Below are positions 15,589 through 39,977 of a stretch of 64,000 nt of DNA, piece by piece. The stretch's first letter is position 1. Every line of letters starts with the position of its first letter. Below the pieces are notes generated by a model. It ran no database searches. It had not been told where the DNA came from and saw nothing but the letters and a program-made list of their open reading frames with translations. The stretch lies in the NCBI GenBank assembly GCA_016788585.1, contig JAEURP010000006.1:1-64000 (forward strand). Direction: 5' to 3'. A program made the position numbers and the translations under genes. The DNA comes from Chthonomonas sp. Its GTDB lineage: Bacteria > Armatimonadota > Fimbriimonadia > Fimbriimonadales > Fimbriimonadaceae.

Positions 15589-15620
15589 GCGGATATTACA
15601 GGTTCAAAGTGTACCTGGGA

Positions 15621-15660
15621 AGGGCTTTAGTTTTCAGGGTTTAGGTTTCAGGTTTCAGGG
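15621..15660. repeat. Left inverted-word arm of four-helix cassette B
   Basis: A degenerate tandem of TTTCAGG/TTTAGG words (for example CAGGTTTCAGGG). Its reverse complement recurs at 16046-16078 on the other side of the frameshifted four-helix-bundle gene. Confidence 0.7.
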
Positions 15661-15669
15661 ACGTAAGAG

Positions 15670-16031
15670 CTACATTTGCTCCATAGCCTTACGACGAGAA
15701 TGATCTAGCTTTGTGATCATCTTTGCAATCTGCATCAGCTCGTCTTTCAGAGAATCGGCGTCGGTTTTGGAAATGAGTCCGACCTCTGCGGCAATGGTCA
15801 GTTGGCTCCGGAGTTCAGCATTCGAGCCACGAGCAATTCTGAGGAAGCGACAAAAATCCTTGCCTCCCCATTCATATCCTTCGGCAATGTTGGAACTGAT
15901 GGAGACGGCAGCCGATTGCATTTGGTTTCTGAAGTCGAAGTCTCGGCAGTCCTTAGTAGCTCGTAAATGCGAACTGCAACTGCCTTGGAGCGTTGCCACA
16001 CTTGCAAGTCTTCAAATGATTGAAACCCCAT
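15670..16031 (-). pseudogene. Frameshifted four-helix-bundle (S23/IVS/Avd-like) gene
   Basis: From ATG 16031 the frame reads MGFQSFEDLQVWQRSKAVAV and then RIYE, the family's first helix. It then leaves the family pattern. Near 15960 the family resumes in another frame (CRDFDFRNQMQSAAVSISS, then NIAEGYEWGGKDFCRF) and runs to the stop at 15670. A one-base loss, or two-base gain, at about 15960 explains this. The total of ~120 codons fits the family. Homologues include 23S rRNA intervening-sequence proteins and the Avd protein of diversity-generating retroelements. An intact relative lies at 38060-38407. Confidence 0.8.
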
Positions 16032-16045
16032 TTTCGAATCACATT

Positions 16046-16078
16046 CTGAAACCTGAACCCAGCAACCTGAACCCTTAG
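16046..16078. repeat. Right inverted-word arm of four-helix cassette B
   Basis: CTGAAACCTGAACCC followed by AACCTGAACCCTTAG is the reverse complement of the word run at 15621-15660. The arm begins exactly at the proS stop codon: on the minus strand TAA is followed by GGGTTCAGG. Confidence 0.7.
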
Positions 16079-27290: not shown

Positions 27291-28407
27291 TCCCCAGTGC
27301 GAGAGCCCCGACCGCAATGCATGCGTGGACTGCGAGCACGATCCACGGCAATTGTTCGTACCGAGTGGCCATGCCTGCCGACACTAACGCAGGAAATGCC
27401 ACGCCGGTGAAGCACGGCCCAAGCACCATGATGGCGGTCGAGCGGTGTGGTGCATGCCCCATGCTCGTGCCCCACTGGATAACCGATGGAAACACCGGCC
27501 CCATGGCAACTCCGATCATTACGTATCCGATCCACCCCAGCCCAGGGTGCGAGGTTAAGAAGGCTCCAACCACGGCGAGAACAGCCGCGCCAGCAACTAT
27601 CCGCGAAGGATGCACGCGCAACGCAATGGCCCCGCTACCAAATCGTGCGATCATGAACGCGAACCAAAGTGAGCTTGCGATCGCCGAGACGGTTGCCAGC
27701 GTCATCTCGTGAACCTGCATCAGGTGCCGCGACATGAACGTGAGCGTGGTGATCTCAACCCCGACATAGAGACCGAGGAGCACCATCAACCCATAGGTCT
27801 TTCTTGGCAGCGCCTCTCTTGCCTCTTCTTGAGCCTCTTTAGGAGGTGGGGCGGGAACAATCCAGGCAAACACAAGGCAAGCCAAACCAAGAGCCCAAAT
27901 GACCTGAACGGGCCAGCGCCAAGCTCCGCCACTTTGCCCAACCAATAACGGCCCGGTCATCGCACCAACTGCCCAAAAGCCGTTTAGCGCGCTCAGCCAA
28001 GCACCCACGCCGCGATCCCGAAAGACCCGTGCGATCTCGGCGTTGTACCAAAAGCTGTTTCCGCCATTGCCAAGCCCGATGAGCCCATAGCCAAGGAGCA
28101 ATTGCGTCCAAGACTGCGCGGTCCAGATCACGGTCGCGCCGGCAATGAAAGCCACAGCACAATACCGCGCGACCCATCGCCCCGTGAACCAATGCGAGAA
28201 GAACCCATTGAGCCCAACAATAATCGCCGAGCCGGTGAAGAGTGCCACTCCAATCTGCGATTCATTCGAGCTGGGCTGCCCAAGACCTGAGCTCATCAAC
28301 GATGAAATTGGCCCCGTCATAGTGACCGACATCCCCATGAGCACAAACCACAAGAAGCCCGAGAGGGCGAGGAGCGAAGCTGGACGTGGAGGGAGGTGGA
28401 GGGACAT
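27265..28407 (-). CDS. MFS transporter
   Basis: 380 residues with about 12 hydrophobic segments and a central cytosolic loop (PAPPPKEAQEEAREALPRK). The layout fits the FucP/YbfB-like part of the major facilitator superfamily. The substrate is unknown. Its first nine codons lie within one arm of an inverted repeat shared with the end of purB. It is 95 bp downstream of purB on the same strand and may be co-transcribed. The 3' end overlaps lysA. Confidence 0.78.
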   Translation of the reverse strand: MSLHLPPRPASLLALSGFLWFVLMGMSVTMTGPISSLMSSGLGQPSSNESQIGVALFTGSAIIVGLNGFFSHWFTGRWVARYCAVAFIAGATVIWTAQSWTQLLLGYGLIGLGNGGNSFWYNAEIARVFRDRGVGAWLSALNGFWAVGAMTGPLLVGQSGGAWRWPVQVIWALGLACLVFAWIVPAPPPKEAQEEAREALPRKTYGLMVLLGLYVGVEITTLTFMSRHLMQVHEMTLATVSAIASSLWFAFMIARFGSGAIALRVHPSRIVAGAAVLAVVGAFLTSHPGLGWIGYVMIGVAMGPVFPSVIQWGTSMGHAPHRSTAIMVLGPCFTGVAFPALVSAGMATRYEQLPWIVLAVHACIAVGALALGTSRAEPAS

Positions 28408-28514
28408 AGCTGGACGGTTGCCTACGACGAATTCTTGATGAGTTTAGAATTTAGAACTCTGAGTTTAGAATCTGACAAGAGCAATCGTCCCTCAACTGTC
28501 CCTCAACGTCCAGC
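28379..28514. repeat. Inverted G-rich word pair without a gene inside (locus C)
   Basis: 28379-28405 (GCTGGACGTGGAGGGAGG then TGGAGGGAC) is repeated in inverse, with a few changes, at 28487-28514 (GTCCCTCAACTGTCCCTC then AACGTCCAGC). The right arm contains the purB stop, since TGA of CGT-TGA opens the GAGGGACA word. Between the arms, 28440-28472 has GAGTTTAGAA twice plus TTTAGAA. The GAGGGACAGTT word is also the core of the palindrome at 1627-1695. Confidence 0.75.
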
Positions 28515-36621: not shown

Positions 36622-38028
36622 ATGCGACGCCGTTCCCTCTTGCCTCTGTTCTGCCTCGCAGGATTGTCCTGTTCCTCTCACGCCCAGCTTCGCGTGTCGG
36701 CTTGGAACATCACAAATTGGAACCAGACTGACCAGAATTCGGTCCGGTCAAACGCCGTAAAGACTGCGGTCTTTGAGACCTTTCAGGGCCGGAGCATGAA
36801 TCCGGACATCATTTTCCTCACCGAGATTATCAACCAGACCTCGCTGAACACGTTGGTCAATGTATTCAACAATGCATTCGGCAGCCCGGGGGACTTTGCG
36901 GCGTATCAATTCTTGACCGGCCCGGATACTCAGGCGGCCTGCCTCTACCGCACCTCGATGGTTGTGCCAATGGGGAATCCGGTACTGATTTCGGCGGGTG
37001 GTTCCGCGCCCGAACCGCCGCGCAATACCTACCGCTACGACTTCTGCCCCGTAGGCTACGTGAACAGTGCAACTACGATCAGCGTTTACAATGTGCACCT
37101 TAAGGCGGGCGATGCTTCCGGCGATCGGTCGCGCCGGTTGCTTGAATGCCAGCGGATCCGACTTGATGCCAATAATCTCTCCCAGCGTGCCGGGATCATG
37201 GTCGTGGGCGATTTCAATATCGATAGTAGTAGCGAATCGTCGTACCAAGAGTTGATCGGCAACCAGGCCGACAACTCGGGCCGATTTTTTGATCCGATTA
37301 ATACACCGGGCAATTGGAGTGGCAACGCGAGTTTTAAGTATGTTCATACCCAGGATCAATACGCCTCAGATGGAATAGGCGCCGGTATTGGCATTGACGA
37401 CCGCTACGACTTTATCATCATGGACGGCGGCTTGCTCGATGGCATTGGGATGCACTACTTGGGCAACTCGAACATTCCATACAGCACCTCCACGTGGAAC
37501 GATCCAAATCATAGTTACCGCTCATGGGGCAATGATGGTTCGTCTTGGTATAGCGGAACGAGCCATATGCTCACAATCGCTGGCAACACGATGGTCGGCC
37601 CGACGATTGCTCAGGCGCTAGTCACTTCGACCGGCAACCAAAGCGGCCACCTTCCGCTGTTTGCCGATGTTCGCGTGCCGGCTGTGGCCTCGACCGACGT
37701 TTTGAACCTCGACTTTGGCCTGATCGGTCCGGGATTCACTTACCAATTGCCTCTTCAGGTCGCAAACACGGGCGATACGATCAAATGGGGCATGAATGGC
37801 GTGGCTGACCTATCCTATTCTTTCAACACAACTGGCAGCTTTTTCGGCCCCGCTGGCACCTTCACCGACCGCGCGGATGACGGGCCAAAGACTCACCAAA
37901 TCACGGCGAGCACGGCAACACCGGGACGAATCAACGGCACGGTGACGATTACAACAAACGACCCTCTGAGGCCGACGTTGACGATCAACTGCACGGCGCT
38001 GATTGTGGGGACGGTGTCGCCTCCGTAG
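36622..38028 (+). CDS. Secreted endonuclease/exonuclease/phosphatase-family protein
   Basis: 468 residues. Signal peptide (PLFCLAGLSCSSHAQ). The EEP core has WNITNWN, IIFLTEI (metal-ligand Glu), YNVHLKAG, VVGDFNID and a final SGHLPLFADV with the catalytic His, all in order. A C-terminal ~100-residue beta domain (with LQVANTGDTIKWG) resembles choice-of-anchor or Ig-like modules. It probably cleaves phosphodiesters outside the cell; the substrate is not known. The stop codon is followed immediately by the left arm of four-helix cassette A. Confidence 0.82.
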   Translation: MRRRSLLPLFCLAGLSCSSHAQLRVSAWNITNWNQTDQNSVRSNAVKTAVFETFQGRSMNPDIIFLTEIINQTSLNTLVNVFNNAFGSPGDFAAYQFLTGPDTQAACLYRTSMVVPMGNPVLISAGGSAPEPPRNTYRYDFCPVGYVNSATTISVYNVHLKAGDASGDRSRRLLECQRIRLDANNLSQRAGIMVVGDFNIDSSSESSYQELIGNQADNSGRFFDPINTPGNWSGNASFKYVHTQDQYASDGIGAGIGIDDRYDFIIMDGGLLDGIGMHYLGNSNIPYSTSTWNDPNHSYRSWGNDGSSWYSGTSHMLTIAGNTMVGPTIAQALVTSTGNQSGHLPLFADVRVPAVASTDVLNLDFGLIGPGFTYQLPLQVANTGDTIKWGMNGVADLSYSFNTTGSFFGPAGTFTDRADDGPKTHQITASTATPGRINGTVTITTNDPLRPTLTINCTALIVGTVSPP

Positions 38029-38065
38029 CGGGTCTCGGGTCTGGGGTCTCGGGTCTCGATTAGGA
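38029..38065. repeat. Left inverted-word arm of four-helix cassette A
   Basis: Tandem copies of GGGTCTC (CGGGTCTCGGGTCTGGGG then TCTCGGGTCTC and TTAGG), starting on the base after the stop codon of the EEP gene. The reverse complement recurs at 38420-38452. Confidence 0.85.
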
Positions 38066-38407
38066 GGTGCGAAGGGATTCGCGGAGCTTCCATAACATGG
38101 CACCTACTCTAGTAGTCAACTCCATCTCCCGAGTAACATCAAGTTTGTAAAGGCGATCACATAGGATGAGCAGCGTCTCAACTTCGCAGCAACTCCCATA
38201 TGCAATTCCAACAAACTGAACATATTCTTTTCGATTGTTTCGGCCATATCCTTCGGCGACATTGATTGGAATCGAGTTTGCGGCTCGCCGAATCTGATTC
38301 GTCAATCCAAAGAGTTCCTCCTTTGGCAATTGCTTGGTTAGCGTGTAGATTCCAACTGAATTCTCGATTCCCATTTGCCATACATCCAACTTCTGATACG
38401 ACTGCAT
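38060..38407 (-). CDS. Four-helix-bundle protein (S23/IVS/Avd-like)
   Basis: 115 residues, family length. YQKLDVWQMGIENSVGIYTL forms the first helix, then GLTNQIRRAANSIPINVAEG with the hallmark Q-I-R-R-A and N-V-A-E-G, then KEYVQFVGIAYGSCCEVET. Such proteins are encoded inside 23S rRNA intervening sequences in some bacteria, resemble Avd of diversity-generating retroelements, and bind nucleic acid. Here it sits between protein genes, bracketed by inverted GGGTCTC runs. The frame is intact, unlike the copy at 15670-16031. Confidence 0.88.
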   Translation of the reverse strand: MQSYQKLDVWQMGIENSVGIYTLTKQLPKEELFGLTNQIRRAANSIPINVAEGYGRNNRKEYVQFVGIAYGSCCEVETLLILCDRLYKLDVTREMELTTRVGAMLWKLRESLRTS

Positions 38408-38419
38408 TGATTAGTTCTA

Positions 38420-38452
38420 CCTAAGACCCGAGACCCGAGACCCGAAACCCCA
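38420..38452. repeat. Right inverted-word arm of four-helix cassette A
   Basis: CTAAGACCCGAGACCCGAG, then ACCCGAAACCCC: reverse complement of the GGGTCTC run at 38029-38065, including the TTAGG at the inner end. RNA across the locus could fold into a ~33-bp stem with the four-helix gene in its loop. Confidence 0.85.
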
Positions 38453-38564
38453 GAAGGTAAACTACAACCGTCCGATGAGTCCAACCACGAAGCAGAAGGC
38501 CAACATTACCGGCCTCATTGCCGATATCAACGCGATCACCGCGGACACCCCCCAAGAACAGCCC

Positions 38565-39977
38565 ATGGCACAAGAAAACTTTGATGCAGATGTCGTCGTG
38601 ATCGGCGCCGGCCCTGGAGGCTATGTTGCCGCCATCCGAGCCGCCCAATATGGAGCCAAGGTCATCGTCGTCGAGAAGCAGTATCTCGGCGGAACCTGTC
38701 TCAATTGGGGCTGTATTCCCTCCAAAGCCATGATCGCAAGCGCGGAGAACTACCAGCACGCGCAGCACCTTGCCGACTACGGCGTCAATGTCGAAGGCAA
38801 GATCAGTTTTGATTTCGAGAAGATCTCGGCGCGACGAGACAAAATCGTCACGACACTACGCGGCGGCGTCGGAATGCTTCTCAAGAAGAATAAGATCGAG
38901 CACGTTGAGGGCTTTGCCAAGTTCACCGACAAGAACACGATCGAAGTCGAAAAGGACGGTCAGAAGCGCTCCATCAAGGCTAAGAACTTTATCCTCGCGA
39001 TGGGTAGCACGATCATCGTTCCTCCGATTCCTGGCCTGAAGGGCGGGCGCGACGAAGGCATCTGGACGAGCGATGACGCGGTCACTGCGCCCTTCCAGCC
39101 CAAGAAGATGCTCATCATCGGCGGCGGCGTGATCGGCGTCGAATTCGGTTACGTCTTTAATGCCCTCGGCACGGAGGTCCACGTGGTCGAAATGCTCCCT
39201 CGCGTCATCCCGATGATGGATGAGGAACTCGGAACCGAGCTCGGAAAACTCATGACCAAGCAGGGCGTCAAGTTGCACATGGGCACAGCCGTCGAGAAAC
39301 TCGAGAAGGTGAAGGACGGCTGGAAGGTCACGATGAAGAGCGGTGGCAACACTGAAGAAGTCACCGTGGACGTCGTGCTCGTAGCCGTTGGGCGACGCGC
39401 GTTCACCGACGAGATGAACCTCGAGAAGATCGGCGTCAAGCTCCAGCGCAGCGGCGTCGAGGTCAATGGCCAGATGCAGACCAGCGTGGACAACATCTAC
39501 GCGATCGGCGATGTCACTCAGCGCATTCAGCTCGCGCATGTGGCTTCCTATGAGGGCGCAATCGCGGCCGAGAACATCGTGAAGGGCAAGAAGAAAGAGG
39601 CTGACTATCGAGCCGTTCCGAATTGCATCTACACGAATCCGGAGGTCGCCAGTGTCGGCATGACCGAAGGCGAAGCCAAGGAGAAGGGCTACGACGTGAT
39701 GACCGGCAAGTTCGCCTTCCGCCCGCTCGGCAAGGCCATGGCCGCCGGAACGCAGGATGGTTTTGTAAAGGTCGTCGCCGAGAAGAAGTACGGCGAAGTT
39801 CTTGGCGTCCACATGATCGGCGCCCACGTGACCGACATGATCGCCCAAGCGGTCGTCGCGATCAAGCTTGAGGCCACCGTAGACGTCATGGTGGACACCA
39901 TCCACGCGCACCCGACCATGAGCGAAGCAATGCTCGAAGCGTATGAAGATACGCACGGCATGGCAATTCATAAATAA
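38565..39977 (+). CDS. lpd: Dihydrolipoamide dehydrogenase
   Basis: About 470 residues. FAD loop VVIGAGPGGYVAA, redox disulfide GGTCLNWGCIPSK, NAD loop IGGGVIGVEFG, second FAD site YAIGDVT and the dimer-interface HAHPTMSEAMLEAYED with the catalytic His-Glu. It is the E3 part of pyruvate, 2-oxoglutarate or glycine-cleavage complexes; no E1/E2 gene is adjacent. ATG 38565 places the FAD motif at the usual distance. The frame extends 30 codons upstream to ATG 38475. Confidence 0.96.
   Translation: MAQENFDADVVVIGAGPGGYVAAIRAAQYGAKVIVVEKQYLGGTCLNWGCIPSKAMIASAENYQHAQHLADYGVNVEGKISFDFEKISARRDKIVTTLRGGVGMLLKKNKIEHVEGFAKFTDKNTIEVEKDGQKRSIKAKNFILAMGSTIIVPPIPGLKGGRDEGIWTSDDAVTAPFQPKKMLIIGGGVIGVEFGYVFNALGTEVHVVEMLPRVIPMMDEELGTELGKLMTKQGVKLHMGTAVEKLEKVKDGWKVTMKSGGNTEEVTVDVVLVAVGRRAFTDEMNLEKIGVKLQRSGVEVNGQMQTSVDNIYAIGDVTQRIQLAHVASYEGAIAAENIVKGKKKEADYRAVPNCIYTNPEVASVGMTEGEAKEKGYDVMTGKFAFRPLGKAMAAGTQDGFVKVVAEKKYGEVLGVHMIGAHVTDMIAQAVVAIKLEATVDVMVDTIHAHPTMSEAMLEAYEDTHGMAIHK

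Follow-up and report, generated by a model that had tools for sequence, protein, structure and literature searches.

A small gene bracketed by inverted runs of a seven-base word in a Chthonomonas sp. contig (JAEURP010000006.1) is probably one copy of a small mobile DNA element, the sole gene of which encodes a four-helix-bundle protein of the PF05635 family (23S_rRNA_IVP, hereafter IVP) and the ends of which are inverted arrays of tandem heptads. The locus, here called cassette A, lies in a window of 64,000 nucleotides (positions 1 to 64,000 of the contig), the whole stretch of DNA that was analysed, and is composed and bordered as follows.

36622 to 38028, + strand: flanking gene with a weak Exo_endo_phos match
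38029 to 38058, + strand: left array, 4.3 copies of GGGTCTC, directly 3' of the neighbour's TAG stop
38060 to 38407, − strand: IVP gene (PF05635), 115 amino acids, intact, four-helix bundle
about 38419 to 38454, − strand: right array, the same word inverted (GAGACCC on the + strand)
38475 to 39977, + strand: flanking gene, dihydrolipoamide dehydrogenase-like (Pyr_redox_2)

The sequence-only reading of this DNA had described an intact S23/IVS/Avd-like gene between inverted GGGTCTC runs, and the description holds: the encoded protein matched PF05635 in a Pfam scan (E 2.5e-31), the arms form an inverted repeat over 27 bp (38030-38056 versus 38424-38450, score 23), and when placements of this geometry were scored across the entire window (2540 in all) cassette A came out highest with 23, followed by a second locus, cassette B, with 16 and by the best other placement with 12. 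Also as read, the left run starts on the base after a neighbouring stop codon, the TAG of the 36622-38028 gene, and a gene of the family found in 23S rRNA intervening sequences (IVS) is located between two protein-coding genes; the sole hit of an Rfam scan of the window was a tRNA. The IVP gene is oriented opposite to its neighbours. No reverse transcriptase was seen in a Pfam scan of the flanking genes, and neither Pfam scan nor structure comparison detected a recognisable transposase encoded in cassette A.

Among the relatives examined, both neighbours of cassette A are kept only in genome G002, but at about 73% protein identity; an Exo_endo_phos-like gene also precedes Lpd there, the two being separated by an ordinary intergenic stretch with no array and no element, and no PF05635 gene was found in this genome. 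In G001 and G004, which are the closest relatives, the neighbours of cassettes A and B differ and no clean empty site was found, and comparison with all three genomes gave no nucleotide-resolved empty site for cassette A.

Cassette B and a gene-less pair of arrays lie elsewhere in the window.

15620 to 15659, + strand: left array of cassette B (TTTCAGG)
15670 to 16031, − strand: IVP gene of cassette B, frameshifted, its N-terminal third in another frame
16046 to 16076, − strand: right array of cassette B (CCTGAAA type on the + strand), abutting the prolyl-tRNA synthetase stop codon
16075 to 17586: prolyl-tRNA synthetase gene adjoining cassette B
28379 to 28411, + strand: left array of the gene-less element, GGGACRTTGA type word
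28480 to 28514, − strand: right array of the gene-less element, inverted

Cassette B had been put forward as a second cassette of the same layout with a different word. The layout with TTTCAGG was confirmed, but a frameshift separates the first third of the gene (MGFQSFEDLQVWQ...) from the remainder (15670-15999), and the latter frame matches PF05635 profile columns 22-105 only. In the gene-less element (28379-28514) the arrays are only about 70 bp apart, and its GGGACRTTGA word also surrounds two IVP genes of the same genome (L004 and L005).

Inverted arrays proved to be a property of the PF05635 family. All seven strong PF05635 genes of this genome (G000) have inverted tandem words, with an own word for each locus or close pair, and the family is present in 25 of the 61 genomes in the set of relatives. 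For each gene, the 350 bp on either side were compared for their best inverted repeat, with a score cut-off of at least 16, and placements of identical geometry elsewhere in the same loci served as controls. Within the order, such repeats occur at 90% of 49 loci (controls 2.9%), and in named genomes at 83% of 71 loci (controls 4.3%); the named genomes comprise Bacteroidota, Acidobacteriota, Planctomycetota, Chloroflexota, Pseudomonadota, Nitrospirota, Clostridia and others. Direct repeats in the order loci equal the background (4% versus 4%). In viral contigs, 33 of 36 PF05635 loci have inverted arrays, as do most loci examined by eye on cyanobacterial plasmids. These statistics leave aside the weak PF05635 matches L008, L029, L031 and L032 and three other weak or partial matches; a pattern scan built on the first profile alignment was dropped because that alignment was too divergent. 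The four named weak matches (190-290 amino acids) are without flanking inverted arrays. Three of them, L008, L031 and L032 (190-210 amino acids), form a longer subfamily that may differ in life style, and L031 has internal or C-terminal repeats.

Gene and arrays form one insertion unit with a 5-bp target duplication, resolved to the nucleotide at one site. At an IVP site on plasmid C of Trichormus variabilis, the gene and both arrays are missing in four plasmids of 97-98% identity (from Nostoc linckia, Tolypothrix, Aulosira and Nostoc carneum). The empty site reads GTTAAAAA-GTAAT-TAACAAATA with a single GTAAT, within which the upstream gene's stop codon lies, while the occupied Trichormus copy carries GTAAT on either side of a 423-bp insert. 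Since gene and both arrays are absent together and the occupied copy shows the duplication, the arrays constitute the two ends of the inserted DNA. Internal deletion gives rise to derivatives without the gene: at the same plasmid site the IVP gene is internally deleted in Nostoc sp. C052 (L323) and inverted arrays remain without a gene in Brasilonema (L325), and in Stanieria PCC 7437 the IVP gene was lost by internal deletion with the left array kept and 99% identity beside the deletion. The whole unit is also missing in relatives at nrdB/nrdA, next to an integrase and at two plasmid loci, all at lower identity; at these four sites identity is too low to fix a target duplication, which leaves a single insertion with a clear one. 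Independent variation of gene and repeats had been named as an outcome that would speak against a joint element; the two are absent together at the nucleotide-resolved site, whereas arrays without a gene, which had not been foreseen, do exist.

Two candidate sites were set aside. The Xanthomonas carA/carB gap was rejected as a target-duplication site because the slot is filled by other small genes in species without IVP; the small genes in this gap vary among Xanthomonas species (L331-L350), making it a cassette slot in an essential operon. The counterpart in this genome of an IVP site with the word ATTAGGA in G004 and G001 was rejected as an empty site because it carries a gene-less inverted pair with a different word, GAGTTTAGA (L231:13090-13330 compared with L235 and L045). 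A TTTAGAA word is common to this GAGTTTAGA pair and to the inside of the gene-less element in the window (28440-28475).

The end sequences are periodic and private to a locus or its close relatives. A best period of 7, 14 or 21 was found for 169 of 252 arms, compared with 69 of 1424 control stretches; arrays have a median length of 35 nt, a typical arm comprising four to five heptads, and on the coding strand 99 of 110 loci have a G-rich upstream arm. These 110 loci have 92 different top words, the two ends of a locus sharing theirs, and with gene and arrays absent together at one site this agrees with the earlier proposal of a mobile IVS-like element family with locus-specific ends. Loci at about 95% protein identity have heptamers in common (median 0.57), as do those around 80% (0.36), and loci below 75% hardly any. 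At sister loci in G000, G001 and G004 the GGGTGTG word is kept while copy numbers drift, and the protein has a dN/dS of 0.04-0.05, indicating that the two ends change together and that the protein is under strong purifying selection. At two loci (L014, L044) the array runs into the IVP frame, giving C-terminal amino acid repeats (PNQPNQPN, TRPPTTETRPP). A tail resembling VREExAxYG is present at the C-termini of otherwise divergent subfamilies (L009, L011, L013, L047, L050, L055, L056) and may serve to dock a partner enzyme.

Arrays without a gene are dispersed through genomes and are abundant where the IVP gene uses the same word. In this genome, 39 tandem arrays passed the threshold in about 397 kb of stretches, taken as the array background; the period was 7, 14 or 21 in 24 of these arrays, and several formed gene-less inverted pairs. 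Doubled GGGAATC gave 177 hits in G016, whose IVP gene L015 has this word, 42 in Xanthomonas codiaei, whose IVP gene has a GGGATTC/GGGAATC word, and none in G000. Doubled GTTTGCG gave 27 hits in G016, which again has an own IVP gene with the word, and 0-1 in each of 36 other genomes, while GTTGGCA was found 26 times in G008 and five times in G014, each of which has an IVP gene with this word, three times in G015 and at most once elsewhere. The four Xanthomonas species with the carA/carB element have 33-44 query matches and the others 3-29, with a query that includes the element's own arrays. For the cassette A word, genome specificity is weak at best: G000 holds just two more exact sites, and G001, G017, G020 and G035 have exact matches as well. 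In G016 and G008 most dispersed arrays are solo rather than inverted pairs (one list behind this result covers 38 of 40 loci), and some dispersed arrays abut arrays of other words; in G008, different heptad words stand side by side at L384, L385, L387 and L390, as if arrays land beside arrays.

Heptameric repeats have been reported before, namely GGGAATC in Xanthomonas and GGGGAYT in Nostoc (PMC4692102) and TAACTGA in Beggiatoaceae (PMC4679880); those of Xanthomonas, described by Rehm and colleagues, include 70 convergent pairs whose source was not named (PMC4692102). In a term search, neither paper proved to mention S23 or 23S genes. The over-representation of such repeats in many bacteria, for which no cause was named (PMC4692102), would also fit an unrelated host process, such as slippage, gene conversion or illegitimate recombination, that spreads arrays between which IVP genes merely survive best, and so would the solo arrays, the abutting arrays of different words and an IVP without catalytic fold. 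We consider this unlikely, given that inverted arrays accompany 83-90% of IVP genes and 3-4% of other places, that dispersed arrays of a word track the IVP gene with that word, and that gene and arrays were inserted together.

The cassette A product is predicted to be a four-helix bundle (AF2 pLDDT 97.4), and its closest structures are 2gsc (XCC0516) and 2rld, with five chains per entry each, and Avd (4dwl), which aligns with a TM score of 0.80 at about 10% sequence identity. Avd forms a pentamer. No nuclease or transposase fold was found in the IVP protein by structure comparison. The Avd fold, and an organisation reminiscent of REPIN and RAYT (PMC3116915), could point to a known enzyme acting in trans, either a reverse transcriptase, as with Avd in diversity-generating retroelements (DGRs), or a RAYT-type Y1 transposase. 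This is very improbable: RVT_1 matches are absent from 6 of 12 IVP genomes tested, two of these assembled in one or two contigs, and no Y1_Tnp match was found in G016, the genome with most dispersed arrays. Dependence on a reverse transcriptase or DGR and dependence on RAYT were both rejected on these grounds and, judged by absence, both enzymes are dispensable. With no nuclease fold in IVP and these enzymes missing from such genomes, we propose a role for IVP in pairing the ends, with cutting and joining left to some other enzyme.

Insertions favour the 3' ends of genes, at stop codons. In 26% of cases an arm starts no more than 5 nt from the stop codon of a gene that reads towards it, compared with 2.7% for shifted positions; for distances of up to 20 nt the figures are 49% and 8.8%. 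This excess partly reflects tolerance, as mostly intergenic insertions survive, although the peak is nonetheless sharp. Copies also lie inside operons, including carA/carB and accB/accC in Xanthomonas, nrdB/nrdA, and CRISPR operons of cyanobacterial plasmids (cas10/cmr3 and, twice, cas6/cas4; L309, L312 and L316); the Xanthomonas gene names are our own reading of the sequence and the cyanobacterial ones follow the annotation of the records.

The many copies in operons could indicate an element that, like 23S IVS, acts at the RNA level, its arrays kept as a long stem in the transcript and cut out by RNase III, so that the gene would be harmless within an operon. The protein family is the same, the Coxiella IVS has termini that form a 28-bp pairing and are cleaved by RNase III (PMC4990558), and in a predicted fold of the cassette A sense transcript, for which a long stem with the gene in its loop had been suggested, the arms can pair (z −3.6). 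The further idea that the ends persist because of this stem was not supported. Selection on an RNA stem through G:U wobble predicts the opposite of what was seen, mismatches between arms on the sense strand being A:C more often than G:U (222 versus 135; 49 loci versus 24), and the RNA stem is therefore not what keeps the arms alike. Moreover, many dispersed arrays have no partner, cassette A runs opposite to its neighbours, and the target duplication points to insertion of DNA. The data thus do not support selection for a sense-RNA hairpin and an RNA-level element appears improbable, with some role for an RNA stem being possible.

The mobile DNA element favoured here shares features with several known systems. 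The 23S rRNA IVS of Leptospira and Coxiella also have a PF05635 gene within terminal inverted repeats, a sporadic distribution and a similar size (428 nt in Coxiella, 423 bp plus duplication for the Trichormus insert). However, they sit in the 23S rRNA gene (helix 9, 25 or 45) whereas cassette A lies between protein genes, and the element differs by tandem heptad ends that vary per copy, duplication of a DNA target and dispersed gene-less arrays. PF05635 genes have been known mainly as passengers of ribosomal RNA genes. As early as 1993, IVS were proposed to be of mobile origin and to carry an ORF for mobility, a question that was then left open (quoted in PMC4990558). REPIN/RAYT systems (PMC3116915) similarly have one gene, with its own repeat both flanking it and dispersed without a gene, and one repeat type per gene, but they employ a Y1 (HUH) transposase and a conserved palindrome instead of a four-helix bundle and tandem heptads; pairs are often inverted in both, but a strict analogy fails in G016 and G008 with their mostly solo arrays. 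The heptameric simple sequence repeats (SSRs) of Xanthomonas, Nostoc and Beggiatoaceae share the period of 7 and the intergenic location and in Xanthomonas often form convergent pairs; they were described as repeats alone, whereas the X. codiaei IVP gene is flanked by the GGGATTC/GGGAATC word. Avd of DGRs is alike in fold (4dwl) but only about 10% identical, and the element needs no reverse transcriptase. Finally, insertion sequences and MITEs also have terminal inverted repeats, a 5-bp target duplication and internally deleted gene-less derivatives, while the present element is without a known transposase fold and its ends are not conserved within the family. Inverted ends, duplication and a clean empty site, by which insertion sequences are recognised, were found together at the GTAAT site and not at cassette A itself.

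To our knowledge, no described insertion sequence lets its ends vary freely while changing together. Because its ends vary within the family and it encodes no catalytic domain, the element can be regarded as a new kind; a cautious view would class it as a variant of IVS or insertion sequences. A full-text literature search, outside which most subscription journals fall, returned no paper linking PF05635 genes to heptad arrays.

We propose that the ends of the element are a tandem word, usually of 7 bp, private to a copy or its close relatives. IVP, a pentamer in its relatives, would bind the four to five heptads of each arm and bring the ends together, and such recognition would make word and protein change together, whereas cutting and joining would be left to a partner or host enzyme. 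The typical arm of four to five heptads suggests, without proof, one heptad per IVP subunit. Bacterial palindromes are unstable, and solo arrays could thus be what remains once an inverted pair loses one arm. Some observations weigh against this model: simple mobilisation in trans does not predict the mostly solo arrays of G016 and G008, the cassette A word has little genome specificity, and the catalyst is missing, as IVP has neither a nuclease nor a transposase fold. A broader reading, conceivable though short of an even chance in our estimation, is that of a very widespread new class of transposable element, in which the pentameric IVP would be all the machinery on board and would read heptads one per subunit, the ends would be copied from each other and so invent new words in each lineage, most bacterial heptameric repeats would be footprints of the element, and rRNA IVS would be a branch that landed in 23S genes.

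The analysis joins two old puzzles, the function of the S23/IVP protein and the origin of the dispersed heptanucleotide repeats of bacteria. The element that it predicts would be transposable, would lack any known transposase and would be free in its end sequence provided that both ends change jointly. Overlooked mobile DNA of this kind could account for the scattered seven-letter repeats that have been noticed in bacteria for decades.
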